Below, piece after piece: positions 33,898 to 59,402 of a DNA stretch of 64,000 nt (position 1 is its first letter; each line of letters starts with the position of its first letter). Origin of the DNA: Candidatus Nanopelagicales bacterium (lineage in GTDB: Bacteria; Actinomycetota; Actinomycetes; S36-B12; CAIYMF01); contig JAFIHG010000001.1 of the NCBI GenBank assembly GCA_017848795.1, positions 62,001 through 126,000 of the forward strand, given 5' to 3'. A program made the position numbers and the translations under genes. The notes beneath the pieces are model-generated. The model was not told the origin of the DNA. It did no database searches and saw nothing but the letters and a program-made list of their open reading frames with translations.

Positions 33898-33935
33898 AGC
33901 CAATTCGACCACTGTCACAGAACAGGTGCGCCACG

Positions 33936-35576: not shown

Positions 35577-35579
35577 CGC

Positions 35580-35625: not shown

Positions 35626-35646
35626 ACCTGCAGAAAGGGACGATCC

Positions 35647-36003: not shown

Positions 36004-36013
36004 CCCCTGTTCC

Positions 36014-36064
36014 GGATGAATGTGGCAGGAGTCCGCTCTTAGCGGAGTCCTGCCACATTCATCC
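36014..36064. repeat. 24-bp near-perfect hairpin
   Basis: Arms 36014-36037 and 36041-36064 pair at 23 of 24 positions with a 3-nt loop. It begins 11 nt after the cupin stop and precedes the aminotransferase. No U-run follows; it may be a processing site or a palindromic repeat. Confidence 0.8.
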
Positions 36065-36081
36065 GCAAACCAACCCGGATC

Positions 36082-36117
36082 AGCACAGTTGGCACAGTTG
36101 GCACAGGTAGCACAGGT
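36082..36117 (+). repeat. Four tandem 9-bp repeats before the aminotransferase
   Basis: Units AGCACAGTT, GGCACAGTT, GGCACAGGT and AGCACAGGT are head to tail with no gaps. They end 2 nt before the ribosome-binding site of the aminotransferase. The number of units could vary between strains and alter expression. Confidence 0.85.
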
Positions 36118-36132
36118 ATGGAGGATGCGACG

Positions 36133-37488: not shown

Positions 37489-37501
37489 GCGCCGGCGTGC
37501 G

Positions 37502-43534: not shown

Positions 43535-45087
43535 CGGGCCATCCCCTCCTCGACCAGCTCCGGGCGGCGCAGCGCGAGCGCCGCGGCGGCGTACGCGGCC
43601 CGGGCGTTGGTCGCCGGCACGAGGGCGCCGGCCTCCTCGAGCGTGGCCTGCTGCCGCGACCGTACCTGCGGGTCCGCCTCGGTCCCCAGGACGTACGCCA
43701 CGACCTGCGGGCCGCCATCGGCCATGACCTCGGCGCACACCGGTGCCAGCTGGCCCGCAGGGTCGGCGTGCGCGCCGTGCCCGAGCACGACGTCGAGCAG
43801 CACCACCGCCACGTCCGGGGACTCGCGCACCTCGCGCAGCAGCTCGATCCGGTTGCCGGCGTCGATCATCGGGTGCGGTACACCGCGGGTGTACTCCTCG
43901 GCTCCCAGGTCGAGCAGCACGTGCGCGCCGTCCGGGGCGGGCAGCCCGTGGTCGGCACGCAGCGGCTCGTTGGAGTGCACCGGTCCGAGCAGGTCCTCGA
44001 GGATCACCTGCGCCTCGTAGCAGAGGGTGCCGCCGGAGAACAGGCCGCGCACCAGGGTCCGCTCGGGTGCCAGCCGCTCGGCCGCGCGGCGTACGGCGTC
44101 CTGCAGTCCCGCGGTGAGCGCCGGCGGTGAGACCCCGACCCGGCGGGCGGCCGCGACCGCGCCCTGCTCGAGCGTCGCCGCCAGCGGGGCGTCCGGGTGT
44201 CCGGCGAGCTCGTCGACGCCGAGGAACACGGCGACCGCGGGGGTCTGCCCGCAGGCGTCGAGGACCTGTGCTGCGACAGCGGGTTCCGGTGGCTTGGAGA
44301 CGAGCAGCACGACCCCTGTCGCGTCGTCGGCGGCGAGCGTGCGCGCGGCGGGCAGCGCCATGCGCGCGGCGACGGTCTGCGACAGGTCGCGCCCGCCGAC
44401 GCCGATCACCTCGGACACCGTGACGCCCCACCGGTCCAGCAGGGTGTGGACCTCCTGCGCGCCGGTGCCTGCAGCCGCGATCACCCCGACCCGGGGGGCG
44501 TGCGGTGCGGTGAGCGAGACGTTGGCGAAGCCCAGGCCGGTGCCGGCGAGCACCGCGGTGCCGGCGCCGGGCCCCATCACGAGCCGCCCGAGCCCGGCCG
44601 CCCGGGTCTTGAGCTCGACCTCCTCCTCGAGCGGCACACCGTCGCTGAACAGCAACACGTGCAGGCCTGCGGTGAGTGCCTGGTGGGCGGCGACGGCGGC
44701 GTACTCCCCCGGCACCGAGACGATCGCGACGTTCGCGTCCTGCTGCGCGGCGACCGCCTCGGCGACGCTGACCGGCGGACGGTCGGCCGACTCGCCCTGG
44801 TCGGGTCCGCTCGCCTCGAACGCCGCTGCGCGCCCGCTCTCGAGCACCGCGTCGAGGTCCGCGTCGTCGTCGCCCTTGACGGCGAGCACGAGATCGTTGG
44901 CGCCGAGGCCCGACAGCGCCGGGTCCTCGACCCCCGCCGCGGCGAGGTCCTGCAGTCCGCGCGAGGTCGCCATCGTGGCGCCCGCCCAGCTCACCCCGTC
45001 GGCGCCCTCCATCGCGACCGTCGCCGCCATCAGCAGCAGCGAGTCGCGATAGCTGCTCTTGAAGACCCGTACCGCCTGCCCGCTCAC
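43531..45087 (-). CDS. fdrA: FdrA-like acyl-CoA synthetase-fold protein
   Basis: 518-residue FdrA-family protein. It has the YRDSLLLMAATVAMEGADGV start, a CoA-binding-like VGVIAAAGTGAQEVHTLL and C-terminal succinyl-CoA-synthetase-like LFSGGTLCYEAQVIL. In E. coli fdrA (allF) works with DUF1116 and DUF2877 proteins as an oxamate carbamoyltransferase that releases carbamoyl phosphate. Here carbamate kinase is immediately upstream (GTGA overlap), as in that system, and a DUF1116 gene lies at 54555. The acceptor or donor compound is unknown. Confidence 0.88.
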   Translation of the reverse strand: MSGQAVRVFKSSYRDSLLLMAATVAMEGADGVSWAGATMATSRGLQDLAAAGVEDPALSGLGANDLVLAVKGDDDADLDAVLESGRAAAFEASGPDQGESADRPPVSVAEAVAAQQDANVAIVSVPGEYAAVAAHQALTAGLHVLLFSDGVPLEEEVELKTRAAGLGRLVMGPGAGTAVLAGTGLGFANVSLTAPHAPRVGVIAAAGTGAQEVHTLLDRWGVTVSEVIGVGGRDLSQTVAARMALPAARTLAADDATGVVLLVSKPPEPAVAAQVLDACGQTPAVAVFLGVDELAGHPDAPLAATLEQGAVAAARRVGVSPPALTAGLQDAVRRAAERLAPERTLVRGLFSGGTLCYEAQVILEDLLGPVHSNEPLRADHGLPAPDGAHVLLDLGAEEYTRGVPHPMIDAGNRIELLREVRESPDVAVVLLDVVLGHGAHADPAGQLAPVCAEVMADGGPQVVAYVLGTEADPQVRSRQQATLEEAGALVPATNARAAYAAAALALRRPELVEEGMAR

Positions 45088-46061
45088 CGGCCCACCTCCT
45101 GCACCTCGCGCACCGCCGTGATCGTCGTCCCGGTGTCCGGGTCGCCGGCGAGCACCGCGCCCAGCCGGTCCGGTGAGGTGATCACCGCGGTATCACCGCC
45201 GGACTCCAGGAACCGTACGGCGGCAGCGACCTTGGGGCCCATGCTCCCGGCCGCGAGCTGTCCGGAGGCGAGCAGCTCGCGTGCCTGGTCGGCGGACAGG
45301 CGCCGGGCGGGGCGTTCGTCCGGCGTACCGAAGTCCAGCAGCAACGCCTCGACCCCGGTGAGCAGGTAGAGCGCGCTCGCCCCGAGGTCGCCGGCGAGCA
45401 GCGCCGCGGCGTGGTCCTTGTCGATGACCCCGTCGACCCCCTGCCAGCCGCCGTCGTCGTCGCGGCGCACCCCGATGCCGCCGCCGCCCGCGGCGACGAC
45501 GACGAAACCGGCCGCGACGAGGGCCCGTACCGCGGCGCGCTCGAGCACCGCCCGTGGCATCGGCGACGGCACGAGCCGCCGGTAGCCGCGCCCGGCGTCC
45601 TCGCCCACGACCCATCCGCGCTCGGCTGCCAGCCGCTGCGCCTCGGCGGCGGTGAAGAACGGGCCCACCGGCTTGGTCGGGTCGGCGAACGCCGGATCGG
45701 CGGGGTCCACCTCGACGTGGGTGACGACCGCGACGGCCGTCGTTGCGTTGCAGACCCGGTCGATCTCGCGGGCCAGCACGCTTCCGAGCTGGCCCTGGGT
45801 CATCGCGTTCAGCTGGTGCAGCGGCTGCGGGGGCACTCCCGGCGCGCCGCTCTCCTGCTGGATCGCCAGGTTGCCGACCTGCGGACCGTTGCCGTGGACC
45901 ACGACGACCTCGGCTCCGGTCGCGCGGACCGCGCCGACGGCCTGCGCCATGGCGGCGGCGTTGGCAAGGATGCCCTCGGCACTGCCCGGCTCGCCGCTCG
46001 CCGTCAGCGCGTTGCCGCCGACGGCGAGCACGACCCGGGGAGCCGACGCGCGTGATGTCAT
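45084..46061 (-). CDS. arcC: Carbamate kinase
   Basis: 325-residue amino-acid-kinase-fold enzyme making ATP from carbamoyl phosphate and ADP. Typical blocks: VVLAVGGNAL (10-19), VVHGNGPQVGNLAIQQE (53-69), VVAAGGGGIGVRRDDDG and VIDKDHAAALLAGDL. First gene of the kinase-fdrA-GT-amidohydrolase operon. ATG at 46061 with GGAGCTG upstream. With FdrA it suggests substrate-level ATP gain from a carbamoylated nitrogen compound. Confidence 0.93.
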   Translation of the reverse strand: MTSRASAPRVVLAVGGNALTASGEPGSAEGILANAAAMAQAVGAVRATGAEVVVVHGNGPQVGNLAIQQESGAPGVPPQPLHQLNAMTQGQLGSVLAREIDRVCNATTAVAVVTHVEVDPADPAFADPTKPVGPFFTAAEAQRLAAERGWVVGEDAGRGYRRLVPSPMPRAVLERAAVRALVAAGFVVVAAGGGGIGVRRDDDGGWQGVDGVIDKDHAAALLAGDLGASALYLLTGVEALLLDFGTPDERPARRLSADQARELLASGQLAAGSMGPKVAAAVRFLESGGDTAVITSPDRLGAVLAGDPDTGTTITAVREVQEVGR

Positions 46062-46140: not shown

Positions 46141-46482
46141 ATGCTCGAGCAGGACGACCCGCAGGCCGGGGACGCGGCGGGCCAGCGGCGGCTCGCGATG
46201 CGGTGGTGGGGGGCGCAGAACCAGCTGTTCGCGTCGCTGGTGATGCTGCCCGAGGAGTACGAGCACGTGCTCACGCTGCTCGGGCGCGTGGTCGCGCAGC
46301 TGCGGCCGCGCACCGCGACGCGCAGCGCACTGTGCGCCGCCGCGGACGGCATCGACGCGGTGGTGGCCGAGGCCGCGCAGGGGGCGCCGCTCGGGCCGGA
46401 CGTGGACGCGCTGCTGCCGCTGCTCGGTCCCGCCGCGCTGGCGATGCGCTGGCAGGAGCTCGACGCGTCGGGAGCGGACTGA
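46141..46482 (+). CDS. Small hypothetical protein before the radical SAM gene
   Basis: 113-residue helical protein (AMRWWGAQNQLFASLVMLPEE, then TLLGRVVAQL), no family recognised. GGGAG lies before the ATG. It is divergent from carbamate kinase and 93 nt upstream of the radical SAM gene. It may be a cluster-specific accessory protein. Confidence 0.55.
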   Translation: MLEQDDPQAGDAAGQRRLAMRWWGAQNQLFASLVMLPEEYEHVLTLLGRVVAQLRPRTATRSALCAAADGIDAVVAEAAQGAPLGPDVDALLPLLGPAALAMRWQELDASGAD

Positions 46483-46509
46483 CCCGAGCGGTTGCGCGAC
46501 CCCCGGAAA

Positions 46510-46525
46510 GTGTCGGATAGTGAAC
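46510..46525. promoter_or_regulatory. GTGTCGGATAG motif before the radical SAM gene
   Basis: GTGTCGGATAGTGAAC lies 50 nt upstream of the GTG at 46576. Its first 11 bases are identical to the copy at 42325. Confidence 0.6.
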
Positions 46526-46575
46526 GGGGCGCGCGTCCAGCGCCCGCGGACCGATGTCGTCAGGGGGCAAGCCGA

Positions 46576-47727
46576 GTGAGCACCGACACCCGTACCGCCG
46601 CGGGCAACGACCTGGCCGAGCTGATCACCGACCTGCAGAGCCGCGGCATGCGGGTCGAGGTGCCGATCGGCGAACGGCGCAGCGGCGCCGGCCCGGCCGA
46701 CGCCGGCATGCTCTACCTCGACGGGGTGGCGACGACGGTGCCGGTGTCCGCCGGCTACGTCGCGGACTCGCCCTACACGTTGCGCAGCGACGACGACGGC
46801 AGCTGGGCGGTGTACGAGGGCAGCGTGCGGCTCGCGGACGCCTCGCTCGCGCCGCGCCCGAAGTACTACGACCTCACCACCGCCGACGGGATCCCCTACT
46901 GGAAGATCGCGTTGATGCACCTGGACTCCATGGCGAGCACGGTGCTGCAGACCTGCGCCTACTGGGGCAACAGCGACCAGTGCCGTTTCTGCGGGATCGG
47001 GGTGACGCTGGCGGCCGGGCGCACGATCGCGAAGAAGACGCCCGCGATGCTGGCCGAGGTCGCGGTGGCCGCCCGTGACCTGGACGGCGCGGTCGACGCG
47101 ACGCTGACCACGGGCAGCACTGCGACACCCGACCGCGGCGCGATGTACGTCGCGCGGTGCGGGGCCGCCGTCAAGGAGGCCGCGGGACTCCCGGTCCAGG
47201 TGCAGTTCGAACCGCCGCGCGACCTGGACGTGATCGACCGGGTCGCCGACCTCGGCATCGACTCGATCGGCATCCACATCGAGACCTTCGACCCCGCGGT
47301 GCTCGCCCGGGTCGCGCCCGGCAAGGCCCGCTGGGGCATCGAGGCGTACTTCGCCGCCTGGGAGCGAGCCGTGCAGGCGCTCGGGCCGGGACAGGTCTCG
47401 ACGTACGTCATCGTCGGCATGGGCGAGGACCCGCAGCTGCTGATCGAGGGCTGCAAGCGCGCGATCGACATCGGCGTCTACCCGTTCGTCGTACCGCTGC
47501 GCCCGGTGCCGGGCAGCCTGATGCAGGACGAGACCCCGCCGAGCAAGGCCCAGATGGACGAGATCTACCACGCGATCGCGCCCTACATGGCACTCAAGGG
47601 CATGTCCTCGGCGCAGGTCGCCGCCGGTTGTGCCCGGTGCGGTGCCTGCTCGGGCCTGCACGCCTTCGAGACCGGGAAAGGGGATCTGCGTGACGGACGT
47701 CCTGCATTGCCCCTCCACGTCGTCTGA
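46576..47727 (+). CDS. MSMEG_0568-type radical SAM protein (NitD-like)
   Basis: 383-residue radical SAM enzyme. Cysteines 127, 136 and 139 (CAYWGNSDQCRFCGIG) form a C-x8-C-x2-C set instead of the common C-x3-C-x2-C. A further CARCGAC triplet (352, 355, 358) near the end could hold a second cluster. The TIM-barrel strands include VQVQFEPPRDLDVI and YVIVGMGEDPQL. The family is a core member of Nit1C clusters of cyanobacteria and mycobacteria (nitrogen-starvation or cyanide assimilation). Its chemistry is not established. GTG at 46576 with AGGGGG upstream; the GNAT gene overlaps its 3' end. Confidence 0.85.
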   Translation: MSTDTRTAAGNDLAELITDLQSRGMRVEVPIGERRSGAGPADAGMLYLDGVATTVPVSAGYVADSPYTLRSDDDGSWAVYEGSVRLADASLAPRPKYYDLTTADGIPYWKIALMHLDSMASTVLQTCAYWGNSDQCRFCGIGVTLAAGRTIAKKTPAMLAEVAVAARDLDGAVDATLTTGSTATPDRGAMYVARCGAAVKEAAGLPVQVQFEPPRDLDVIDRVADLGIDSIGIHIETFDPAVLARVAPGKARWGIEAYFAAWERAVQALGPGQVSTYVIVGMGEDPQLLIEGCKRAIDIGVYPFVVPLRPVPGSLMQDETPPSKAQMDEIYHAIAPYMALKGMSSAQVAAGCARCGACSGLHAFETGKGDLRDGRPALPLHVV

Positions 47728-48175
47728 CCCCGCACCGCCACTGCGCTGCCGACCGGTCGCCGACGCCGGCGAGCTCGCCGCGCACCACGCGATCCGGCAC
47801 GAGGTCTTCGTCGTCGAGCAGGGCCTGTTCGCGGGCAGCGACCTCGACGCCCACGACGCCGACCCGGCGACCGTGCACCTGGTCGGCCTGGCCGGCGAAC
47901 AGGTCGCCGGGGTGGTGCGGCTGTGGCCGCACGGCGACGGGCGCTGGCACGGCGACCGCCTCGCGGTACGCACGGGGTGGCGCCACCTGGGGCTGGGCCG
48001 GCCGCTGGTGCGGCTCGCGGTCCGTACCGCCGGCGCGGCCGGGGGCGAACTGATGACCGCGCACGTGCAGGTGCGCAACGTCCGGTTCTTCCAGGCCCTG
48101 GGCTGGTCCCCGGTCGGACAGGTGGAGGACTACCTCGGCGCCGCACACCAGCTGATGACGATCGCGCTGCGATGA
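47690..48175 (+). CDS. MSMEG_0567-type GNAT acetyltransferase (NitE-like)
   Basis: 161-residue GNAT-fold protein (AAHHAIRHEVFVVEQGLF, VRTGWRHLGLGRPLVRLAV, RNVRFFQALGWSPVG). It starts inside the end of the radical SAM gene (38-nt overlap), showing strong coupling. In Nit1C clusters this family is encoded next to the radical SAM gene and the AIR-synthase-like protein. Acyl acceptor unknown. Confidence 0.85.
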   Translation: MTDVLHCPSTSSDPAPPLRCRPVADAGELAAHHAIRHEVFVVEQGLFAGSDLDAHDADPATVHLVGLAGEQVAGVVRLWPHGDGRWHGDRLAVRTGWRHLGLGRPLVRLAVRTAGAAGGELMTAHVQVRNVRFFQALGWSPVGQVEDYLGAAHQLMTIALR

Positions 48176-48195: not shown

Positions 48196-49167
48196 TCAGC
48201 CCAGGTTCGTCAGACCCCGCGCGGTGAGGTCGAAGACGACCGCCTCCTCGCTGCCGCGACGCAGGCGCACCAGCCCGGTGTCGTCGAGCACCCCGACCCG
48301 CGCGGCCGCCAGGCCACGCTCGTGGAAGGCGGCGATGCACGCCGCAGCGGCAGGCTCGTCGGGCGCGGTGAGCAGGAACGCCAGGCAGGGGAAGCAGGAC
48401 AGCCAGTCGCCGAGCTCGACGCCGTCCGGCACCGGCAGCAGCTCGAGGTCCAGGCCGACCCCGAGCCGGCCCGGTTCGAGCAGCATCGCGAGCGAGCCGA
48501 CCGTGCCGGCCATGCTGACGTCCTTGGCGGCGAGCGCGTGGCCCTGCTCGGCGAGCCGGGCGAGCAGCCGGACGTCACCGGCGAGCCGGTCGCCCCGCTC
48601 GGCGAAGGACGGGAAGAACAGGAAGTCCTCGCGCATCCGGCCCTCGGTGCTGGCCGCGACTACGAGCGGCTGGCCCGCGGCGGCGTTGCGCATCGACAGC
48701 ACACGGCCGGCGCGACCCACGCCGAACGCGGAGACCGACGGCGCGGTCTCGCTCACCGTCAGGTGCCCGCCGACGATCGGTACGTCGTACCGCTCGGCCG
48801 CCCACCGCATGCCGCGCAGCGCCTCGCGGGCCACGTGCTCGGGGCCGACGACCGTGTCGACGATCGCGAGCGGGCGCGCCCCCATGGCGGCCAGGTCGTT
48901 GACGTTCGCGAGGACCGCGGACACCCCGGCGCCGTACGGGTCGGTCGCCACCAGTTCGGGCAGCATCGCCTCGCCGCACACCACCACGGAGCCGCCGTCC
49001 TCGCCCGGTACGACGGCGCCGTCGTCGCCAGGTCCGGCGTACCAGTCGGTGGCACCGAGCACCTGCGTCACCAGGCCGATGTCGGACTTGGCACGCACCG
49101 CGGGAAGCGCCTGCAGCCGCGCCGCGAGTGCCGCGAGCCCGGTCGTCGCGGCGCCCACCGTGCCCAC
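48196..49167 (-). CDS. sll0787-type AIR synthase-related protein (NitF-like)
   Basis: 323-residue PurM-fold ATP-binding protein. The N-terminal half has GDDGAVVPGEDG and AVLANVNDLAAMGARPLAIVD; the C-terminal half AKDVSMAGTVGSLAMLLEPG. PurM-fold enzymes activate a carbonyl oxygen with ATP so that nitrogen or another nucleophile can attack. In most Nit1C clusters it is on the same strand as its partners; here it is convergent with the GNAT and divergent from the plus operon. GTG start at 49167. Confidence 0.85.
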   Translation of the reverse strand: MGTVGAATTGLAALAARLQALPAVRAKSDIGLVTQVLGATDWYAGPGDDGAVVPGEDGGSVVVCGEAMLPELVATDPYGAGVSAVLANVNDLAAMGARPLAIVDTVVGPEHVAREALRGMRWAAERYDVPIVGGHLTVSETAPSVSAFGVGRAGRVLSMRNAAAGQPLVVAASTEGRMREDFLFFPSFAERGDRLAGDVRLLARLAEQGHALAAKDVSMAGTVGSLAMLLEPGRLGVGLDLELLPVPDGVELGDWLSCFPCLAFLLTAPDEPAAAACIAAFHERGLAAARVGVLDDTGLVRLRRGSEEAVVFDLTARGLTNLG

Positions 49168-49223: not shown

Positions 49224-50012
49224 ATGGTGAACGCCGCGGCCGGCCCGCCGAGCTTCCTCGCCGTCCCCGGACGGTCCACGAAACCGCGCGTCTGCGGCAT
49301 CACCCACGTGCTGGACAAGGGCCTGCCGGTCGCCGAGGCCGCGGGGCTGCTCGCCGTGAGCGGGCCGTACATCGACATCTGGAAGTTCGGCTGGGGCACC
49401 GCGTACCTCGACCCCGGCCTCACCGCCAAGCTCGCCCTGCTCGCCGAGCACGGCGTGCGAACCTGCCCGGGCGGCACGCTGCTGGAGATCGCCTGGCACC
49501 AGGGCGCGGCCGACCGGTTCCTGGACTGGGCAGGCGAGGTCGGGTTCCCGTGCGTGGAGGTGTCGAGCGGTGTCGTGACGATGACGCCGGACGAGGTGGC
49601 CTCGCTCGTCGCGCGGGCGGCGGACCGCTTCCAGGTACTGCGCGAGGTCGGCAGCAAGGACCCGGCCGCGCCGGTCACCGCGCAGGACTGGGCCGAGCAG
49701 GCCGCCGCCGCGGTCGCCGCGGGCGCGAGCTGGGTGGTGACCGAGGGACGCGAGAGCGGCACCGTGGGACTGTTCGACCCGGACGGCCGGGTGCGCGAGG
49801 AGGTCGTCGCCGCGGTCGTCGACGCGGTCGGGTACGAGCGGGTGGTCTTCGAGGCGCCGCGCAAGGACCAGCAGGCCTGGCTGTTGCGCCGGCACGGCCC
49901 GGAGGTGAGCCTCGGCAACGTGCTGCCCGCGGAGGTCCTCGCGCTGGAGGCGCTGCGGCTCGGGCTGCGGGCCGACACCTTCGACCCCTCCCGGCAGGCG
50001 GCGCACACATGA
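49224..50012 (+). CDS. Phosphosulfolactate synthase (ComA)-like protein
   Basis: 262-residue TIM-barrel protein of the ComA family: RVCGITHVLDKGLPVAEA, then YIDIWKFGWGTAYLDP and CPGGTLLEIAWHQG. True ComA adds sulfite to phosphoenolpyruvate on the way to coenzyme M. No other coenzyme M gene is present, so here it may catalyse a different addition to PEP or an enol acid. First gene of a six-gene operon; the next ATG overlaps its stop (ATGA). GTG at 49227 is an alternative start. Confidence 0.8.
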   Translation: MVNAAAGPPSFLAVPGRSTKPRVCGITHVLDKGLPVAEAAGLLAVSGPYIDIWKFGWGTAYLDPGLTAKLALLAEHGVRTCPGGTLLEIAWHQGAADRFLDWAGEVGFPCVEVSSGVVTMTPDEVASLVARAADRFQVLREVGSKDPAAPVTAQDWAEQAAAAVAAGASWVVTEGRESGTVGLFDPDGRVREEVVAAVVDAVGYERVVFEAPRKDQQAWLLRRHGPEVSLGNVLPAEVLALEALRLGLRADTFDPSRQAAHT

Positions 50013-50902
50013 CCCGGTACCCGGACCGCTATCGCGGCGTGTCGGTGACCGACGTCGACGTGCCGCTCGAGGAAGAACCGTTGCGGACGCTGCTGATGTC
50101 GCGTCAGGTGTACCGGCGTACCGACTACATGGTGCTGCGCAGGGACGGGGAGCACGCGCTCGTCGCGATCGGCCGCGCCGGCGACGAGACGCTGTTCTGC
50201 GACGTGACGTCGGTGGAGCTGCTCGCCGGGCCGGAGGAGACCGCGTACCTCGTCCGGCCCGAGCTGGACACCGCGATCCCCAGCCAGCTCATGCGGGCCG
50301 CCTCGGAGGTCCCGGACGCACGCTGCGTGATCGTCGAGGGGCGCCACCAGCACGTCAGTTTTGCGCTCGACCCCACCCCGCTGCGGGTCCGTGTACTGGA
50401 CATCGCACCGCCGTACCCGGCCAAGCTCGTCGATCAGGTGGAGCGGGTGCTCGACACCGCGCAGGACCTGCCTGACCTGCTGCCCGTACCCGAGGTCGTG
50501 GAGCTCACCGGCCTGCTGCCCGCCGAACGCGCCGAGCACTACCTGTTCCAGTGCCGCGGCGGTGGGATCGAGGTCGAGGGCGCGACGAGCGACTACCTCG
50601 ACGAGGTGCCGGCACCACGCGACTGGGTGATGCTCGGCTGCGAGCGCTCCCGGCAGATTCACGAGCACTTCTACGGCGCGCTGCCGGACCACGAGATGAC
50701 CCAGGTCGACACCTGCCCGCGGGCGATGGCCCGTCGGATGTCCGTACCGCCCGGCGAGGCGCTGCTGACCAAGTGCTGCCTGCTCGAGTTCGAAGTGCAG
50801 CGCGAAGGCGCGCTCGTCGTTGTGCCGTTCGGGGCCAGCTACGAGCAGCTGCGCGAGGGGCTGCGGCTGCTGCCGCGCGCCGCCGGGCGGGAACCGGGAT
50901 GA
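50009..50902 (+). CDS. Conserved-looking protein of unknown function
   Basis: 297-residue soluble protein between ComA-like and lyase genes, joined to both by 4-nt ATGA overlaps. It begins RYPDRYRGVSVTDVDVPLEE; the middle has DIAPPYPAKLVDQVERVLDT and LFQCRGGGIEVEGATSDYL. A Cys-rich stretch MLGCERSRQIHEHFYG, VDTCPRAM, LLTKCCLLE could bind metal. No family was recognised with confidence. Confidence 0.8.
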   Translation: MTRYPDRYRGVSVTDVDVPLEEEPLRTLLMSRQVYRRTDYMVLRRDGEHALVAIGRAGDETLFCDVTSVELLAGPEETAYLVRPELDTAIPSQLMRAASEVPDARCVIVEGRHQHVSFALDPTPLRVRVLDIAPPYPAKLVDQVERVLDTAQDLPDLLPVPEVVELTGLLPAERAEHYLFQCRGGGIEVEGATSDYLDEVPAPRDWVMLGCERSRQIHEHFYGALPDHEMTQVDTCPRAMARRMSVPPGEALLTKCCLLEFEVQREGALVVVPFGASYEQLREGLRLLPRAAGREPG

Positions 50903-52095
50903 GCGTGCGGATCGCCGACTCGGTGATGTACGGCCATCTGTGGGGCACCACCGCGGCGCGGGCCGTCTTCGAGGAGCGGGCGCGCGTGCAGCGTTGGCTC
51001 GACGTCCTCGCCGCGCTCGCCCGCGCCCAGGCCGCCGCCGGCCTGATTCCGGCCGACGCAGCCGAGACGATCACGCGCGAGGCGCGCGTCGAACGGCTCG
51101 ATCTCGACTACGTCGCCGAGCAGACCCGCGCGACCGGCCACTCGACGCTGGGATTGATCCGGGGCGTCGGGAAGCTGCTGGACCCCGCCGTGCACCGCCA
51201 CTTCTACCGCGCCGCGACCGTGCAGGACGTGACCGACACCTGGACGGCGCTCGCGCTGCGCGACGTCGGCGGTCAGGTGTGGGCCGACCTGTGGGCGCTC
51301 GAGGACGGGCTGCTCACCCTCGCGGCCCGCTACCGCGACACCCCGATGGCGGGGCGTACGCACGGCCAGCCCGGCGAGCCGATCACGTTCGGCTGGAAGG
51401 TCGCGTCCTGGGCGGACGAGGTGCGTCGCCACCTCGACCGGCTGCAGGCGGCCGCACCGCGCTGGCTCGTCGGTCAGCTCGGCGGCGGGGTCGGGACGCT
51501 CGCCGCCATGGGGCCGCAGGGGCTCGAGGTACGCCGGCGGTTCTGCGCCGAGCTGGGCCTGGCCGAACCCGTGACCTCATGGCTGACCGCGCGCGACCGG
51601 GTCGCGGAGGTCGGGACGCTGTTCGCCATGATCACCGGCACGCTGGCGCGGATCGGAGACGAGGTGTACGAGCTGCAGCGCGCCGAGATCGGCGAGCTGC
51701 GCGAGCCGCGCAGCGCCGAGGGGGTCGGCAGCATCACCATGCCGCACAAACGCAATCCGGAACGCAGCGAGCACCTCGACACCCTCGCGCGGCTGGTGCG
51801 CGCGAACGCCGCCGTGCTGCTCGAAGGGATGACCGGGGTGCACGAACGGGACGGGCGCAGCTGGAAGGCGGAGTGGGTGGCCCTGCCCGAGGTGTGCTTG
51901 CTCACTGCCACCGCCGCCGCCATGGCCCGCGAACTGATCGCGGGACTCGAGGTCGACACCGGCCGGATGCGCCAGAACCTCGAGCGGGCGAGCGACCTCG
52001 GCACCGACACCGGCAGCGCCGCCGCCATGGTGGACGCGGTCGTCGCGGCGGGCCGTACCGCCCGGTCCGGGCAGGGACCGCGATGGCCGTCCTGA
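50899..52095 (+). CDS. Adenylosuccinate lyase-like enzyme (fumarase/aspartase superfamily)
   Basis: 398-residue superfamily lyase most like PurB or 3-carboxymuconate cycloisomerase. The signature loop is GSITMPHKRNPERSE (about residue 279) and an active-site GRTHGQPGEPITFG is near residue 152. Superfamily enzymes remove fumarate or another acid by beta-elimination. It is not the housekeeping purB context: it sits in an operon with an argininosuccinate lyase-like gene. ATG at 50899 from the 4-nt overlap. Confidence 0.85.
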   Translation: MSVRIADSVMYGHLWGTTAARAVFEERARVQRWLDVLAALARAQAAAGLIPADAAETITREARVERLDLDYVAEQTRATGHSTLGLIRGVGKLLDPAVHRHFYRAATVQDVTDTWTALALRDVGGQVWADLWALEDGLLTLAARYRDTPMAGRTHGQPGEPITFGWKVASWADEVRRHLDRLQAAAPRWLVGQLGGGVGTLAAMGPQGLEVRRRFCAELGLAEPVTSWLTARDRVAEVGTLFAMITGTLARIGDEVYELQRAEIGELREPRSAEGVGSITMPHKRNPERSEHLDTLARLVRANAAVLLEGMTGVHERDGRSWKAEWVALPEVCLLTATAAAMARELIAGLEVDTGRMRQNLERASDLGTDTGSAAAMVDAVVAAGRTARSGQGPRWPS

Positions 52096-53060
52096 CCCTG
52101 GCGCGGCTCGGGCTGGGGGTGCTGCCCACCCCGCTGCGAGCGGCGCCCGCGCTGGCAGCGCGGCTCGGGCTGACCGGGGCGCTGCTGGTGAAGCGTGACG
52201 ACCTGACCGGGTTCGCCTTCGGCGGCAACAAGGTCCGCCAGCTCGAGCTGCTGCTCGGCGCGGCGCGCCAGCAGGACGCCGATGTCCTGGTCACCGGCGG
52301 CGGCATCGGCTCGAACTTCGTCGCCGCGGCGGCGGCCGGCGCCGTCCACCTCGGGGTGCGCAACGTCGCCGTGCTGGCCGGTCCGCCCCGCCCGCGTACC
52401 GCGCACCCCAACCTCGCCGCCGCGCTCGCGTTCGGTGCCGAGCCGGTCTGGACCGGCGAGGACGACCGCTCCTCGGTCGACCGGGTCCAGCAGCAGGTCA
52501 CCGCCGAGCTGCGCGCGGGCGGGAGCCGGCCGTACCTGGTGCCGCGCGGCGGGGCGACGGCCACCGGGTCGCTGGGATACCGGCTGGCGGTGGACGAGCT
52601 GTGTGCCCAGCTGCCGGCCGGCACCGCCCCCACGGTGGTGGTCGCGACCGGGTCCGGCGGCACGCTGGCCGGCCTGGTCGCCGGGCTCGTCGCCCAAGGC
52701 CGCCCGTTCCCCGTCGTCGGGGTCTCGGTGAGCCGACCGGTCGCGCAGGTACGCGAACGGGTGCTGGCGCTCGCCCGCGAGGTCGCCGAGGCACGTGGCG
52801 AGCCGCCCGCCGGCGAAGGGGACGTCCGGCTCGTCGACGGCCGCGGCCCCGGGCACGGGCTCGCCTCTGCGGAGGGGCGGCGTGCTGCGCGCGCTGCGCT
52901 CGTGGCCGAAGGGTTGCTGCTCGACCCCGTCTACACCGCCAAGGCGCTCGCGGCGCTGCCCGAGGTGGTGGGCGCGGACCCGGCCGTGTTCTGGCACACC
53001 GGCGGCGTCCTCGACGCCGTCGCCGAACAGCTGACCGCCGATGCGCAGGAGACGACATGA
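52083..53060 (+). CDS. PLP-dependent D-cysteine desulfhydrase/ACC deaminase-like enzyme
   Basis: 325-residue fold-type II PLP enzyme. The PLP lysine is in FAFGGNKVRQLELLLG near residue 42; GGGIGSNFVAAAAAGA binds substrate and VVATGSGGTLAGLVAG the phosphate. Family reactions release ammonia plus a keto acid from D-cysteine, ACC or similar beta-substituted amino acids. Its ATG is inside the previous gene (13-nt overlap) and its stop overlaps the next start. Confidence 0.87.
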   Translation: MAVLTLARLGLGVLPTPLRAAPALAARLGLTGALLVKRDDLTGFAFGGNKVRQLELLLGAARQQDADVLVTGGGIGSNFVAAAAAGAVHLGVRNVAVLAGPPRPRTAHPNLAAALAFGAEPVWTGEDDRSSVDRVQQQVTAELRAGGSRPYLVPRGGATATGSLGYRLAVDELCAQLPAGTAPTVVVATGSGGTLAGLVAGLVAQGRPFPVVGVSVSRPVAQVRERVLALAREVAEARGEPPAGEGDVRLVDGRGPGHGLASAEGRRAARAALVAEGLLLDPVYTAKALAALPEVVGADPAVFWHTGGVLDAVAEQLTADAQETT

Positions 53061-54553
53061 CCGGACACCGGCTCGGGCCGCCGCTGGAGGGCCCGGCCCC
53101 CGAACTGATCGAGTCCGGGTTCGCGCTGGAGAACGCGGACGCGCCGATCCTGCACGCCGGCCTGAACCTCGCCGACCTGGCGCACGTACGCGATCTGCGC
53201 GAGCGGGGCGTCATCCCCGCCGGTGCCGCGGCCCGGCTGGTCGAGGTGCTGCTGGAGGCGGTCGACACGCCGGCGGCGGACTTCCCGTACGACCCGTCGT
53301 ACGGCGAGCCGTACAACAGCCGGGAACGGCACTTCGTCTCGCGCATCGGCGACGATGCCGGCTGGCTGCACGCCGGGCGACCGCGGCGCGAGGCGGTACG
53401 GATCGCGCTGCGACTGCACCTGCGCCGCCAGATCCTCGAGCTGGTCGACGCGGCCGCGGCGTGCGCCGACACCGTCGCCGAGCGGGCCTACGAGAACAGC
53501 CGGACCTGGATGCCGGACCAGACCTACCTGCAGCACGCCCAGCCCTCGACGTTCGGGCACTACCTGCTGTCCTTCGCCTACCCGTTGCTTCGCGAGGGGA
53601 ACCGGCTGCTCGACGCGTTCGCCTGGACCAACACGAGTCCGGCCGGTGCCGGCTGCGTCAACGGCAGCCGGCTGCTCGGCGACCGGGGGCGCGTGGCCGA
53701 CCTGCTCGGCTTCTCCGGTGTCATCGAGCACACCCGGGACGCGATGTGGCAGACCGACGGCCTGGTCGACCTGCTGGGGTCGGCGACCGGCCTGGTCGGG
53801 GCGCAGAGCAAGCTCGCCGAGGACCTGGAGATCTGGGCGAGCAACGAGTTCGACTACGTCACGATCGCCGACGGGTTCAGCCGCGCCAGCGTGCTGATGC
53901 CGCAGAAGCGCAACCCGTACTCGCTGTCGATCGTGCGCGGCGCCTCCGGGACGCTGATCGGGCGGCTCACCGGGTTCCTCGCCGTGGTCAAGAGCCCGTC
54001 CGCGCGCAGCGACAACCTGATCTACGCGTACGGCGAAGTACCGCGCGCGCTGGACCTGTCGATCCGCACCACCCGGCTCACCGCCGGCGTCGTGCGCACC
54101 CTCGAGGTGAACGCCGAACGGATGTGGCAGGCGCTCGAGTCCGGGTTCTCCCAGGCGACCGACCTGTCCGAGTACGTCATGCAGACCTGCGGGGTCGACT
54201 ACCGCACGGCGTACCAGGTGGTCGGCAACGCCGTGCGCAGCGCGAGCCGCGCCGGGCTGCGCGGGCTGGACCTGGACGGCGCGATGCTCGACGAGGCGGC
54301 GGTGGCGTACCGCGGCGAGCCGCTCGGGCTCACCGGGCGGGACCTTTCCGACGTGCTCGATCCCCGGCTGATCGTGGCGACCCGTACCGCGCCGGGCGGC
54401 GCGGCACCGGAGGTCGTGGAAGGGATGGCGCGGGACTGTCGCGCCGCCGCCCGCCGCCTCGCCGAGGCGGCAGAGCGCGAGTGCACCGCGTTGACGGCCG
54501 CGGAGGACGCGCTCGTCGGGTGGGCGCGCGGGACGAAGGAACAGGAGGCATGA
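53057..54553 (+). CDS. Argininosuccinate lyase-like enzyme
   Basis: 498-residue fumarase-superfamily lyase most like ArgH. Signature loop RASVLMPQKRNPYSLS, early NSRERHF segment and THAQPST-like YLQHAQPSTFGHYLLS are present. No argG or other arginine gene is near, so arginine synthesis is unlikely. With the PurB-like enzyme it implies two elimination steps in one pathway, perhaps on an amidino- or ureido-succinate-like intermediate (inference). Confidence 0.87.
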   Translation: MTGHRLGPPLEGPAPELIESGFALENADAPILHAGLNLADLAHVRDLRERGVIPAGAAARLVEVLLEAVDTPAADFPYDPSYGEPYNSRERHFVSRIGDDAGWLHAGRPRREAVRIALRLHLRRQILELVDAAAACADTVAERAYENSRTWMPDQTYLQHAQPSTFGHYLLSFAYPLLREGNRLLDAFAWTNTSPAGAGCVNGSRLLGDRGRVADLLGFSGVIEHTRDAMWQTDGLVDLLGSATGLVGAQSKLAEDLEIWASNEFDYVTIADGFSRASVLMPQKRNPYSLSIVRGASGTLIGRLTGFLAVVKSPSARSDNLIYAYGEVPRALDLSIRTTRLTAGVVRTLEVNAERMWQALESGFSQATDLSEYVMQTCGVDYRTAYQVVGNAVRSASRAGLRGLDLDGAMLDEAAVAYRGEPLGLTGRDLSDVLDPRLIVATRTAPGGAAPEVVEGMARDCRAAARRLAEAAERECTALTAAEDALVGWARGTKEQEA

Positions 54554-54554: not shown

Positions 54555-55961
54555 ATGAGCGAGCGGACCATCGAGCTGCCGGACGAGATCGGGGTGGTGA
54601 ACATCGGGCTGCCGCTGTTCGCCGACGCGGTACGCGACCAGGGCCGGCCGGTGACCCAGGTGGAGTGGCAGATCCCGGGCGGCGGTGACCCGGACGTCGT
54701 CGCCGCGCTGCGCCGGCTGTTCGGACCGCGCACCGAGGCCATCGACGCGGCGAACGCCGAGGTGCTGCACCGGCTCGACACCGGCGTGGCCGTCCTCACC
54801 GGCATCGCCACCGCGGCGGACGTGCTGCCCGTACCGGGACGCACGCTGCTGCACTCCGGCCCGGCGCTCGACATCGCGGACGCCTGCGACCCGCTGCGCC
54901 GCTCCATGCGTGCCACCGTGCTCGCCGAGGGCTGGGCCGGAGACGCGGCCGAGGCCGACCGGATGCTCGCGTCCGGCGAAGTGAGTCTCGCACCGGCCAA
55001 CGAGGCGGGCGCGGTCGTCCCGATGGCGGCGATCATCGGGCCGTCCACGCCGGTCTGGGTGGTGGAGGTCGAGGCGGGCGGCACCGTCGCGTACGCCCCG
55101 CTCGGCCAGGGCTCGGGCGAGGTGGCCTGGTTCGGCCAGGACAGCCCTGCGGCCGTCGCGCGGCTGGTGCTGCTGCGCGAGGCGGTCGCCCCGCTGCTCG
55201 CGCACGCGCTCCCGCTCGTCGATCCGGTCGACGTCTTCTCGTTCGCCGCCCAGGCGGTCGCGATGGGCGACGACGTGCACGTGCGTACGCAAGCGTCAAC
55301 GAACCTGCTGCTGCGCCACCTGCTGCCGGGGCTCGTCGACTCCAGCGACGCCCGCCGGGTCGAGGTGGCGCGGTTCCTGTCGGCGAACTACCTGCTGTTC
55401 CTCACCCTCGCGATGGCCGGGGCGCGCGCCCTCACGGCGTGGGCGGGGCAGGTCGAGGGTTCCTCGATGGTGACGACGATGGCACGCAACGGCACGACGT
55501 ACGGAATCCGGCTGGCCGGGGACGACACCTGGTTCCGCGCGCCCGCACCCCCCGTCGAGAACGCGCTCTACCACCCGGGCAAGGGTCCGCAGGACGGCGC
55601 GCCGGACATCGGGGACAGCGCCGTGCTCGAGCTCGTCGGCCTCGGCGGCGCGGCCGCCGCCGGCTCGCCCTCCGTGGGCCAGCTGGTCGGCGGGCTCGGC
55701 GCCGCCGTCGACCTCACCCGCGACCTCGGCACCGTCTGCGTCGGGCGCTCCAGCCGGATCACCCTGCCCACGCTCGGCGGCGAGGGGACCCCGCTCGGAC
55801 TCGACGTGCGGAAGGTCGTGGAACGCTCGATAACCCCTCGCGTCACAACGGGAATCCTGCACAACCGCGACGGCAGCGGCCAGATCGGCGCCGGCGTCGC
55901 CACCGCCCCGATCGAGTGCTTCCGCGACGCCCTGCTCGCCCTCGACCAACGGCTGGCATAG
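54555..55961 (+). CDS. DUF1116 protein (YlbE/AllG-like)
   Basis: 468-residue DUF1116 family protein: VVNIGLPLFADAVRDQG, then NEAGAVVPMAAIIGPSTPVW, VHVRTQASTNLLLRHLLPGL and GDDTWFRAPAPPVENALYHPG. The E. coli homologue YlbE/AllG is a component of the oxamate carbamoyltransferase along with FdrA. Here fdrA lies 9.5 kb away on the other strand. A third subunit (DUF2877, YlbF/AllH) was not found. AGGAGG lies 6 nt before the ATG. Last gene of the operon. Confidence 0.87.
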   Translation: MSERTIELPDEIGVVNIGLPLFADAVRDQGRPVTQVEWQIPGGGDPDVVAALRRLFGPRTEAIDAANAEVLHRLDTGVAVLTGIATAADVLPVPGRTLLHSGPALDIADACDPLRRSMRATVLAEGWAGDAAEADRMLASGEVSLAPANEAGAVVPMAAIIGPSTPVWVVEVEAGGTVAYAPLGQGSGEVAWFGQDSPAAVARLVLLREAVAPLLAHALPLVDPVDVFSFAAQAVAMGDDVHVRTQASTNLLLRHLLPGLVDSSDARRVEVARFLSANYLLFLTLAMAGARALTAWAGQVEGSSMVTTMARNGTTYGIRLAGDDTWFRAPAPPVENALYHPGKGPQDGAPDIGDSAVLELVGLGGAAAAGSPSVGQLVGGLGAAVDLTRDLGTVCVGRSSRITLPTLGGEGTPLGLDVRKVVERSITPRVTTGILHNRDGSGQIGAGVATAPIECFRDALLALDQRLA

Positions 55962-56500: not shown

Positions 56501-56911
56501 TCATCGGTCGGCGACGCGGACGGTGATCTCTGGTGGGCGGGAAAGGGTGTTGGAGACGTAGCAGACCCGGCGCGCTGGTTCGAGCAGCGGCTGCAACCGC
56601 TCGGTCGGCAGGGACGTGGTGACCACGAGCTCGAAGGAGGACAGCCGCGGACCGGTGTAGCTGCCGATCGCCTCCACCTCGAGGTCCGGCAACTCGAACC
56701 CACGCTTGCGCGCCGCCCAGGCCAGCGCGAGCGCGTAGCAGGACGACAACGACGCGAGCAGCAGGTCGGTCGGCATCGGGCCGGTACCGGTCCCGCCCTC
56801 GGTGTGCGGCTCGTCGACGACCAGGTCGAAACCACCGGCGCGCACCTCGCAGCGCCACCCGCCGGTCCAGGTCGCCACCGCGGCGTTCTGTCCGCTGCGT
56901 TCGTCTGCCAT
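56501..56911 (-). CDS. OsmC/Ohr family protein
   Basis: 136-residue OsmC-fold protein. The two redox cysteines are Cys58 (LSSCYALAL) and Cys117 (RRVCYVSNTL), as in peroxide-reducing OsmC/Ohr proteins. It likely reduces organic hydroperoxides or related thiol-linked compounds. The gene is single, followed by nothing on the same strand for 20 nt. Confidence 0.88.
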   Translation of the reverse strand: MADERSGQNAAVATWTGGWRCEVRAGGFDLVVDEPHTEGGTGTGPMPTDLLLASLSSCYALALAWAARKRGFELPDLEVEAIGSYTGPRLSSFELVVTTSLPTERLQPLLEPARRVCYVSNTLSRPPEITVRVADR

Positions 56912-56992: not shown

Positions 56993-57478
56993 TCACATCG
57001 TCCAGGTGTTCAGGACGAGCGCCTTCTCCTTCCATGCCGTGATGACCGCGTCGAGGACGTCGCGCGGGTTGATCGGCTGCACGCCCTCCATCATGTCCAC
57101 CTCGCGCATGCCGTACAGCGCGGCGGCGGAGAACCGGCACGCGTACACCTTGCCGCCCTCGTCCATGAACGTCTGGAGCTGCTTGTTGTACGTCAGGTTG
57201 CCGGGGAACGCCTCGTCGCCGACCTTCGGGAAACCGCGGGACCGGGCCGTCACGAGCGAGCCGGGTCCGAAGAACACGATGCTGGTGTCGAAACCCTTGC
57301 GGTTGATACGGGTCGCGGTGAGCAGGTTGACCAGCGAGGCCGAACTCTCGAACGGGATGGCGTGGTAGAAGATGAACGCCTTCTGGCCCGGTTCGGCCTG
57401 GTGGTCGGGAAAGACCTTCTGCTCGTAGTCGACGATGGCGTCACCGGGGTTCACCGGCTGGCCGACGAAGTCCGCCAT
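56993..57478 (-). CDS. DsrE-like protein resembling MSMEG_0572/Sll0783 family
   Basis: 161-residue DsrE-fold protein (KAFIFYHAIPFESSASLVNL, FDTSIVFFGPGSL, GGKVYACRFSAAALYGMRE, INPRDVLDAVITAW). These blocks match what I recall of the MSMEG_0572/Sll0783 nitrogen-starvation response family, a Nit1C-cluster member. Yet its upstream site is the amine-regulon operator (57514), not the TTTCCTATC motif. Function unknown; a sulfur-relay or redox role is typical of the fold. Confidence 0.7.
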   Translation of the reverse strand: MADFVGQPVNPGDAIVDYEQKVFPDHQAEPGQKAFIFYHAIPFESSASLVNLLTATRINRKGFDTSIVFFGPGSLVTARSRGFPKVGDEAFPGNLTYNKQLQTFMDEGGKVYACRFSAAALYGMREVDMMEGVQPINPRDVLDAVITAWKEKALVLNTWTM

Positions 57479-57561: not shown

Positions 57562-57870
57562 TCACCTCGCCTTCTCGCCGCTGCGGGCGAGATCCGCCGC
57601 GCGAGCAAGGCTCGCGGCCGGCCCCGACGCCTGCTCCGGCTGATGCCAGGTCCTGCGGTGGCTGCCGGGCATCGCCGCGACGACCTTGTCACGCAGCCCG
57701 ATCGGCAGCCGGTAGAACACGGGTGAATACACCCGCTGCCAGAAGATCTCCGCGCCCGCGGGCCGGCGGGCGGGCAGGCCGTGCTTGTGCGCCATCTCGG
57801 TCTGCGAGTTCACGAGCAGCTGCTGCTGCGAGACCTTGCGCACCCAGCGCGTGAAACCGATCCGTGCCAT
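57562..57870 (-). CDS. Hypothetical protein linked to the flavoprotein gene
   Basis: 102-residue basic protein (RWVRKVSQQQLLVNSQTEMA, then IFWQRVYSPVFYRLPIGLRD). No family recognised. ATG at 57870 is one base after the flavoprotein stop, so both are probably made together; the next gene downstream begins after the operator at 57514. Confidence 0.6.
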   Translation of the reverse strand: MARIGFTRWVRKVSQQQLLVNSQTEMAHKHGLPARRPAGAEIFWQRVYSPVFYRLPIGLRDKVVAAMPGSHRRTWHQPEQASGPAASLARAADLARSGEKAR

Positions 57871-57871: not shown

Positions 57872-59221
57872 TCAGGACCCGGAGCTCTGCCGCGCGTTCT
57901 GCAACGCGTTCTGCGCGGCGAGCGCGATCGGTTCGTTCAGCGCCCCCATCGCCGGCGAGTAGACGTTCTCCATGGTGGCGAGATCGCGGATGGTGATTCC
58001 GGTACGCACGCACATGGCGAGGAAGTCGGCCCGCTCCTTGATCCCCTCGCCGCCGACCAGTTGCGCACCGATCAGCTTGAGGGTGCCCGGCTCGGCGAGC
58101 AGCTTGACGATGACCGGCTTCACGTCCGGGTAGTAGCGCGCCCGCGAGATGCCCTGCGCCTTGCCCAGCACGTACGGGATGCCGAGCGCGTTCGCGATGG
58201 TCTCGCTGAAGGACACCCCGCCGATGAACCACTTCCCGGCCGCCAGCCCCCACGGCACGTACACCGGTTGGTAGCGGCGGCTGCCACCCGCCGCGTTGAC
58301 CCCGGCGACCTTGCCCTGCGAGTACGCGTGGCTGCCGGAGAGCCCCTGCCAGGGGATGTGGCTGACCCCGTGCGGGATCTCCACGCAGTCTCCGACGGCC
58401 CAGATGTCGCGCACCGAGGTGGCCATCGTCTCGTCGACGATGAACCCGCCCGCCGAACCGGTCTTGACCCCGGCAGCGGACCCGAGGGTGGTCTCCGGCA
58501 CCTTGTCGGTCGCCACGACGAGCAGGTCGCACTCGATCTCGCCGGCCGAGGTCACGACACCGCGTACGGCGCCCTTCTCGTCGCCGAGGATCCGCTCGAG
58601 CGTGGTGTTGAAGTGCATGTGCACGCCGAGCTCGGTCCAGGAGTCCTCGACGGGCTTGGCGATGTCGGGGTCGGTCGCCATCGACATCGCCCACGGCGTC
58701 GGGTCGACCAGGTGGGTCTCGATGCCGCGGTGCGCGAGCGCGGTCGTGATCTCCAGCCCGAGCGCACCGGCCTCCAGCACCACGGCCTTCTTCGTGCTGT
58801 CGAAGACCTTGTCCCACTCCATCGCGTTGCGGATGTTCTTCATGTAGTAGATGCCCGACAGGTCCGCACCCGGCACGTCGGGCTTGCGGTACCACCAGCC
58901 GGTCGCGATCACGAGCTTGTCGTACGGGATCGCACTGCCCTCGACGGTGAGCGTCTTGGCGTCCGCGTCGATCGCGGTCACCGTCGTCTCGTACCGGATG
59001 TCGATGCCCTGGTCGACGTACTGCTGCTTGGTGGCGAGGAACAGCCGCTCGAAGTCGGGGATCTCCCGGCCGTGCACGTACGGGATCCCGCACGGGCTGT
59101 ACGCGGCGTCCTCGAACTCGGTGAACACGGTCACCTGCGCATCCGGGTCGGTGCCGAGTGCGGCACCCGCGGCGCCCATCCCACCAGCCCCGCCCCCGAT
59201 GACCAGAATGCGCTGACCCAT
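57872..59221 (-). CDS. CoA-disulfide reductase/NADH oxidase-like flavoprotein
   Basis: 449-residue pyridine nucleotide-disulfide oxidoreductase. FAD fold RILVIGGGAGGMGAAG (4-19), single active-site Cys44 (YSPCGIPYV) as in CoA-disulfide reductase and NADH oxidase, NAD fold AVVLEAGALGLEITTALA and the late VRDIWAVGDCVEIPH. It probably reduces a low-molecular-weight or persulfide substrate with NAD(P)H. The pairing with a DsrE-like protein suggests sulfur or redox relay. Divergent from the XRE-cupin regulator. Confidence 0.88.
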   Translation of the reverse strand: MGQRILVIGGGAGGMGAAGAALGTDPDAQVTVFTEFEDAAYSPCGIPYVHGREIPDFERLFLATKQQYVDQGIDIRYETTVTAIDADAKTLTVEGSAIPYDKLVIATGWWYRKPDVPGADLSGIYYMKNIRNAMEWDKVFDSTKKAVVLEAGALGLEITTALAHRGIETHLVDPTPWAMSMATDPDIAKPVEDSWTELGVHMHFNTTLERILGDEKGAVRGVVTSAGEIECDLLVVATDKVPETTLGSAAGVKTGSAGGFIVDETMATSVRDIWAVGDCVEIPHGVSHIPWQGLSGSHAYSQGKVAGVNAAGGSRRYQPVYVPWGLAAGKWFIGGVSFSETIANALGIPYVLGKAQGISRARYYPDVKPVIVKLLAEPGTLKLIGAQLVGGEGIKERADFLAMCVRTGITIRDLATMENVYSPAMGALNEPIALAAQNALQNARQSSGS

Positions 59222-59402
59222 GCAGAACCTCCGTACCGGACCCCTGCGCGCCATTGATTATCGGCGCAGCACTGTTCACTATCTTCAACGTGAGGCCGTA
59301 CGCCCGTCAAGCGCTGCGCCGATGCGGGGACGGTGCGAGGCACGTCGGCGCGCCGAACACGTACAGTCCAGGGCCAGCGCAGCGAGCAAGGAGAGTGGCG
59401 TC

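Follow-up and report, generated by a model that had tools for sequence, protein, structure and literature searches.

According to a 2024 paper, genes for coenzyme M (CoM) biosynthesis were known from methanogens and aerobic alkene users alone (PMC11507031), and a 2025 paper describes use of CoM only in alkene and alkane metabolism (PMC12068725). The described bacterial set comprises ComA/XcbB, proteins resembling argininosuccinate lyase, adenylosuccinate lyase, and D-cysteine desulfhydrase, and a conserved hypothetical protein of 308 residues (PMC8727900, PMC11507031). Pathway steps are given here as stated in secondary papers and NCBIfam names: ComA/XcbB forms phosphosulfolactate, the ArgH-like XcbC removes its phosphate, the PurB-like XcbD catalyzes addition of a co-substrate to sulfoacrylate, and XcbE, a pyridoxal phosphate (PLP) enzyme, acts later (PMC8727900). 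XcbA is regarded as a functional analogue of sulfoacetaldehyde dehydrogenase (PMC11507031), and its NCBIfam label is only "XcbA family protein." A six-gene operon combining these five genes with one for an AllG-like carbamoyl transferase subunit lies in a stretch of 64,000 nucleotides (nt) from a Candidatus Nanopelagicales bacterium (GCA_017848795.1, contig JAFIHG010000001.1, positions 62,001 to 126,000), referred to below as the window. Sequence comparison indicates that this operon is most likely one module of a conserved cluster for nitrogen acquisition, not for alkene epoxides.

Two other described systems resemble the surroundings of the operon. Cyanide assimilation cannot proceed without Nit1C genes (PMC11049912, PMC9716671), and growth on cyanide in Pseudomonas requires them (PMC11049912, citing Estepa 2012 and Jones 2018). 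The radical S-adenosylmethionine (SAM), GNAT, and aminoimidazole ribonucleotide (AIR) synthase-like genes of Nit1C had no assigned reaction when described in 2005 (PMC1199592). The transcarbamylase AllFGH forms carbamoyl phosphate from a carbamoyl compound in a reversible reaction and works together with carbamate kinase, whose gene accompanies its own (PMC11326118).

The window locus has parts in common with all three systems. It shares with xcbA-E of Xanthobacter autotrophicus Py2 (pXAUT01) and Nocardioides sp. JS614 (pNOCA01) all five families, the catalytic motifs, and an overlapping operon, and its gene order, B-A-D-E-C, is that of pNOCA01; unlike these, it lacks genes for the epoxyalkane:CoM transferase EtnE, KPCC, and CoA-transferase, and alkene genes. 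The class of loci to which it belongs, called class II below, further differs from the Py2 and JS614 operons by a separate XcbA clade, coupling to AllG, and Nit1C-type neighbors. In common with Nit1C (nitBCDEFGH) of Pseudomonas oleovorans CECT 5344 and Synechocystis PCC 6803, the window encodes NitB (Sll0783), NitD, and NitE, each scoring over its family cut-off, a NitF-like AIR protein scoring under it, and an MSMEG_0565 family glycosyltransferase. The Nit6803 nitrilase (NitC) is absent from the window genome, for which reason a plain Nit1C cluster was rejected; the NitG and NitH families were not detected among the window proteins scanned, and the window adds CoM biosynthesis, AllF/AllG, carbamate kinase, a CoA-disulfide-reductase (CoADR)-like protein, and OsmC. 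As for the oxamic transcarbamylase AllFGH and AllK of Escherichia coli, AllF(FdrA)-, AllG-, and carbamate-kinase-like proteins occur together in the window. In contrast to E. coli, the genome has no AllH, and the class II AllG forms a separate subfamily tied to xcbC rather than to allantoin genes.

The six genes lie on the plus strand between 49224 and 55961: xcbB (49224-50012), xcbA (50009-50902), xcbD (50899-52095), xcbE (52083-53060), xcbC (53057-54553), and allG (54555-55961; PF06545, 210.9 bits). The five xcb genes, spanning 49224-54553, overlap by 4, 4, 13, and 4 nt, and allG starts 1 nt past xcbC. Over 30 loci from other species show this gene order with similar overlaps (median junctions of -4, -16, -4, and -4 nt), and the arrangement is therefore not due to chance; in 19 loci allG starts no more than 103 nt from the xcbC stop. 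An earlier note on this DNA had described the ComA-like, PurB-like, and ArgH-like genes and a PLP lyase as one tightly overlapped operon with a divergent AIR-synthase-like gene. Coordinates and overlaps bear this out, with the AIR-like gene at 48196-49167 on the minus strand across an intergenic gap of 56 nt. XcbA (DUF7714), which lies between the ComA-like and PurB-like genes, and AllG are members that the note did not contain.

Profile scores match the first five genes to the five families of the bacterial CoM pathway. The ComA-like protein, which would join phosphoenolpyruvate (PEP) and sulfite, scores 267.8 bits with PF02679 (cut-off 25.2) and 245.2 bits with TIGR03849 (below its cut-off of 280), and its nearest solved structures are the phosphosulfolactate synthases 1u83 and 1qwg. 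XcbA, the unique marker of the bacterial CoM operon, reaches 289.7 bits with NF052538 (cut-off 150) and 262.1 bits with PF24830. The two aspartase/fumarase-superfamily proteins and the PLP enzyme have the Xcb families as their best matches. XcbD scores 527.6 bits with NF052536, named 3-sulfopropionylcysteine synthase in NCBIfam, aligns to model positions 1-365 of 443, and retains the signature motif GSITMPHKRNPE. XcbC, to which phosphate elimination from phosphosulfolactate is ascribed, scores 433.2 bits with NF052535, higher than with the argH model (277), and contains the motif RASVLMPQKRNP. XcbE, of the D-cysteine desulfhydrase type, scores 249 bits with NF052537. In alignments the signature loops and substrate motifs are the same in the window, in class II, and in the EtnE-associated class I, and are common to Xanthobacter- and Nocardioides-type enzymes. 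The product of the operon is thus very probably CoM or a near relative, as judged from gene content. The earlier note had taken a PEP condensation followed by two fumarase-superfamily eliminations for a new combination outside CoM metabolism. The combination is instead the known bacterial CoM pathway, as the NCBIfam families indicate, and the XcbD step is an addition to sulfoacrylate (PMC8727900); the description "outside coenzyme M" fails for biosynthesis and holds for the known alkene/epoxide use, given the lack of EtnE.

Evidence for a second setting of CoM biosynthesis comes from a census of XcbA loci. A contig scan with an XcbA alignment yielded 80 loci (of about 137 XcbA loci). These, the window, and further loci taken from plasmids and relatives were scored against marker proteins. 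Among class I loci of at least 15 kb (n = 23), 18 encode EtnE, 22 CoA-transferases, and 13 KPCC, and none has a class II marker. Class II loci of this size (n = 38), to which class the window locus belongs, encode OsmC (35), AIR-like (29), AllG (27), Sll0783-like (26), CoADR-like (24), GNAT (23), FdrA (20), AllH (19), radical SAM (17), carbamate kinase (16), nitrile hydratase (16), and nitrilase (2) proteins; no etn marker is found in any of the 38, nor is a CoA-transferase, KPCC, ALDH, or MEDS. Nit6803 nitrilase occurs among class II loci only in Methylocystis clusters. The class labels were assigned from these same markers, which makes the marker counts alone partly circular, and independent support for two classes is provided by the XcbA tree and by the observation that no locus combines class II genes with etn genes. 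Many carriers are metagenome-assembled genomes, and some of their titles (Acidobacteria, Bacillota) may be misassigned. Ten XcbA relatives have the markers of neither class in the available stretch (L065, L069, L077, L082, L083, L089, L096, L099, L100, and L101); several of these loci, L089 and L096 not among them, sit on short contigs, and some fall outside the two clades.

Of the 46 class II rows in the XcbA tree, which has 89 rows in all, 45 form one clade (Shimodaira-Hasegawa-like approximate likelihood ratio support of 99), and trees of XcbB, XcbC, and XcbD need only two or three changes of class label. Two Methylocystis loci are nested among actinobacteria in the class II clade, by transfer. 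The only class II row outside it is a Chloroflexi locus (L110), in which the same partners have therefore become linked independently to a different xcb lineage. Whole-genome searches agree with this division. At E < 1e-100, all 13 class I genomes have EtnE; of the 44 class II genomes only one has it, a Methylocystis with both clusters, and the window genome has no match. Two CoM operons, one of class I with etn genes and one of class II of the Nit1C type, coexist in the genome of Methylocystis sp. Sn-Cys (L058, L107). AllG was found in 43 of the 44 class II genomes, the exception being 72% complete, and in a single class I genome (G186) that has a class II cluster as well; AllH was found in 34 of the 44. 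Class II AllG forms a group of its own, about 37% identical to the second AllG of six of these genomes, which lies beside another FdrA, suggesting a substrate other than oxalurate for the class II protein. In several Pseudonocardia, the cluster is split into an xcb half and a half with AllG, nitrile hydratase, FdrA, and carbamate kinase; the halves are about 15 kb apart where they share a contig, and nitrile hydratase is beside AllG. A proposal that the nitrile hydratase of the Pseudonocardia thermophila cluster might be the well-known crystallized enzyme was dropped, as its alpha subunit appeared to differ from that of the crystallized one.

The window has such neighbors on both sides of the operon. 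Beyond the AIR-like gene lie, on the plus strand, genes for a GNAT N-acetyltransferase of the MSMEG_0567/Sll0786 (NitE) family (47690-48175; TIGR04045, 105.8 bits, cut-off 68.45), a radical SAM protein of the MSMEG_0568 (NitD) family (46492-47727; TIGR04043, 395.7 bits, cut-off 303.7), and a small protein (46141-46482) with blastp homologues in L032 (E 2e-7) and L045 (7e-7). This small-protein family, which has no Pfam match, also occurs in L036, L043, L046, and L070 and is often encoded upstream of the radical SAM gene. On the minus strand follow a carbamate kinase-like protein (45084-46052; TIGR00746, 317.4 bits, cut-off 358; NF009007, 269.6 bits, cut-off 266), an FdrA/AllF-like subunit of the acyl-CoA synthetase FdrA family (43531-45087; NF004760, 366.2 bits, cut-off 433; PF00549), the MSMEG_0565 family glycosyltransferase (42314-43546; TIGR04047, 365.8 bits, cut-off 259.85), and an amidohydrolase (41474-42304; PF04909, 59.1 bits) that recurs in nine class II loci. 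Downstream of AllG, also on the minus strand, are an OsmC-like protein (56501-56911; best NCBIfam match NF041052, 49.5 bits, cut-off 95), an MSMEG_0572/Sll0783 nitrogen starvation response protein, NitB of Nit1C (56993-57478; TIGR04044, 218.2 bits, cut-off 109.85), a small conserved open reading frame that matches no family and has homologues in 26/38 class II loci (57562-57870), and the CoADR-like flavoprotein (57872-59254; TIGR03385, 240.4 bits, cut-off 578.8). Its single-cysteine motif, SPCGIPYV, was seen 18 times among class II loci. A PuuR-like XRE-cupin regulator is encoded on the plus strand (59220-60044; NF007408, 74 bits, cut-off 211) and in 21/38 class II loci.

The AIR-like protein was expected in the earlier note to bring a purine-like ATP activation step. 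Its best family is instead the Nit1C sll0787 (NitF) type (TIGR04049, 253.4 bits, cut-off 321), and in these clusters it accompanies the radical SAM and GNAT proteins. It also scores 161.6 bits (cut-off 365) with "methanogenesis marker 2," a family of CoM-using archaea. HypE has a C-terminal cysteine. A HypE-like self-carbamoylation and dehydration by the AIR-like protein is not favored, as its C terminus, LTARGLTNLG, lacks cysteine.

Several further genes were noted near this and related clusters. A pyruvate, phosphate dikinase gene (60124-62835; 1258.7 bits) adjoins the window cluster and could supply PEP for ComA; it did not show up as a conserved neighbor in the other loci of the context census. 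Region 29017-38800 encodes a polyamine-type ABC transporter with two extracellular binding proteins (31674-32909; 37502-38800, PotD-like), a class III aminotransferase, and a BetI-like regulator. In Pseudonocardia and Actinomycetospora, putative larE, larB, and larC genes for nickel-pincer cofactor synthesis, recognized from sequence, lie in various combinations just upstream of OsmC-xcbBADEC (L043, L044, L045, L047, L061, L070, L074, L075, and L079), and CoM might be connected with sulfur insertion by LarE.

The sequences show what the genes are, how the operon is built, which genes keep occurring together, and that EtnE is lacking, and they suggest that CoM probably serves the linked nitrogen cluster, its most likely use being that of a thiol which carries cyanide or nitrile nitrogen and is recycled. 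That CoM or a near relative is made and also serves this cluster, both taken together, is moderately probable. The product, each step past CoM, and the substrate are inferred, and one specific scheme can be offered only tentatively. Nitrile hydratases produce amides, and phosphorolysis of an amide R-C(O)NH2 to carbamoyl phosphate needs a heteroatom leaving group as R, such as a thiol. Since the cluster very probably makes a thiol, a route from CoM-S-CN through CoM-S-C(O)NH2 to carbamoyl phosphate is proposed. XcbB would condense PEP with sulfite to phosphosulfolactate, XcbC would eliminate phosphate to give sulfoacrylate, XcbD would add cysteine, and XcbA and XcbE would convert the cysteine adduct to CoM. 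The CoADR-like, Sll0783/DsrE-fold, and OsmC proteins would handle oxidized CoM, either its disulfide or its persulfide, which would react with cyanide to form CoM-S-CN; a nitrile-hydrating enzyme would convert this to CoM-S-C(O)NH2. The AllF/AllG(/AllH) transcarbamylase would then transfer the carbamoyl group to phosphate and release CoM, and carbamate kinase would turn carbamoyl phosphate into ATP, NH3, and CO2. The nitrilase of the Methylocystis variant could hydrolyze the cyano group directly; those clusters keep AllG and FdrA. The route accounts for CoM, nitrile hydratase, AllFGH, carbamate kinase, and the disulfide-reductase-like protein. Were it correct, CoM would have a third role beside methanogenesis/alkane and alkene-epoxide metabolism, a speculative one at present, as the thiol that carries nitrogen from cyanide or nitriles in class II bacteria; the cyano nitrogen bound to it would be hydrated to a carbamoyl thioester and handed to phosphate by an AllF/AllG-type transcarbamylase, with a gain of ATP.

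Several observations weigh against CoM synthesis for a nitrogen pathway. XcbC, XcbD, and XcbE score under the strict NCBIfam "exception" cut-offs (575, 600, and 450 bits, respectively). Window XcbD is shorter than its relatives in alignments by an in-frame loss of about 60 C-terminal residues and might be inactive; a separate loss of this kind is seen in L041, and XcbD of L022, from the same genus, is full length. The window enzyme may be impaired, or the shortening may be an assembly effect. At E 1e-40, XcbE is absent from eight class II genomes, mostly Acidimicrobiaceae, among them L038, L062, L067, L073, L086, L098, and L105, in which the other xcb genes and nitrile hydratase are present. 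Genome-wide, nitrile hydratase is found in only 30/44 class II genomes and also in 6/13 class I genomes, and for this enzyme only position within the cluster is therefore informative. Nitrile hydratase, AllH, and Nit6803 nitrilase (best score 53.8 bits, cut-off 502.6) are all missing from the window genome, whose completeness is 98.3%, leaving the proposed chain incomplete there. The route assigns no step to the radical SAM, GNAT, AIR-like, and glycosyltransferase proteins, and co-localization is no proof of a shared pathway.

The proteins left without a step figure in a different explanation, in which the cluster is biosynthetic and builds CoM, or a sulfonate thiol, into a natural product or a low-molecular-weight thiol conjugate. 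The glycosyltransferase, GNAT, radical SAM, and AIR-like proteins would decorate the product, and AllF, AllG, and carbamate kinase would supply carbamoyl groups rather than consume them. A glycosyltransferase with MshA/BshA-type similarity (95.7 and 76.3 bits), an acetyltransferase, a radical SAM protein, and an ATP-using AIR-like protein related to HypE, ThiL, and PurL do look like a biosynthetic set, and AllFGH has been assayed in vitro in the carbamoylating direction (PMC11326118). However, nitrile hydratase or nitrilase together with Nit1C genes points to nitrogen assimilation (PMC11049912), no transporter or export genes were recognized among the conserved neighbors, and the glycosyltransferase is present in only 14 of the 38 larger class II loci. 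A biosynthetic cluster is unlikely.

It is rather improbable that the product of the class II enzymes is a sulfonate thiol similar to CoM but distinct from it. The low scores of XcbC, XcbD, and XcbE and the lack of XcbE from one clade would fit such a change. On the other hand, the catalytic motifs are those of class I, XcbA and ComA are kept, and class I actinobacterial enzymes from genomes with EtnE also fall under the cut-offs (XcbE at about 300 bits against 450), so that the XcbE shortfall alone does not separate the two classes.

Alkene/epoxide metabolism, small-alkene epoxide metabolism being the sole described use of bacterial CoM (PMC11507031, PMC12068725), might persist through an unrecognized transferase, or the operon might be a relic of it. 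Relatives in the window's own family carry class I clusters (L023-L025), and the shortened XcbD would suit a relic. Against this, neither the window genome nor 43 of the 44 class II genomes have EtnE, and the class II loci form a conserved clade spanning phyla rather than a scatter of relics. A cluster of the known alkene/epoxide type was rejected because EtnE is absent and CoA-transferase, KPCC, and MEDS genes are not linked, and the broader idea is very improbable.

Finally, despite their PurB- and ArgH-type folds and signatures, it is next to inconceivable that the lyases are housekeeping adenylosuccinate and argininosuccinate lyases lying by chance beside a ComA homologue, because better-scoring, true argH (571 bits, cut-off 279.5) and purB (422 bits, cut-off 326.2) copies, in keeping with the earlier note's placement of the operon outside purine and arginine contexts, are on other contigs of the genome, the operon copies score under the housekeeping cut-offs (PurB-like about 256 against 326.2 bits, ArgH-like 277 against 279.5) and fit the XcbD and XcbC families best, and their gene order is kept across species. 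The earlier note would have been refuted by lyases acting as ordinary housekeeping enzymes in a genome without other copies, and such copies do exist here.

The pathway enzymes themselves are already known; no account of their genomic context or implied role turned up in the papers searched, most subscription papers being outside reach. Nor did the search, with the same limit, find a paper that connects CoM to cyanide, thiocyanate, or nitrile hydratase. The presence of complete CoM operons of one clade in more than 40 genomes that lack EtnE contradicts the picture of CoM as confined to methanogens and alkene users, suggests an undescribed job for CoM in bacteria, and offers a concrete place to seek a new CoM function. 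Class II clusters also provide a handle on the radical SAM, GNAT, and AIR-like genes of Nit1C and on a separate transcarbamylase subfamily. Several carriers are cultured strains of Pseudonocardia and Nocardioides, such as Pseudonocardia dioxanivorans CB1190, P. thermophila DSM 43832, and Nocardioides guangzhouensis, making the role of CoM testable.

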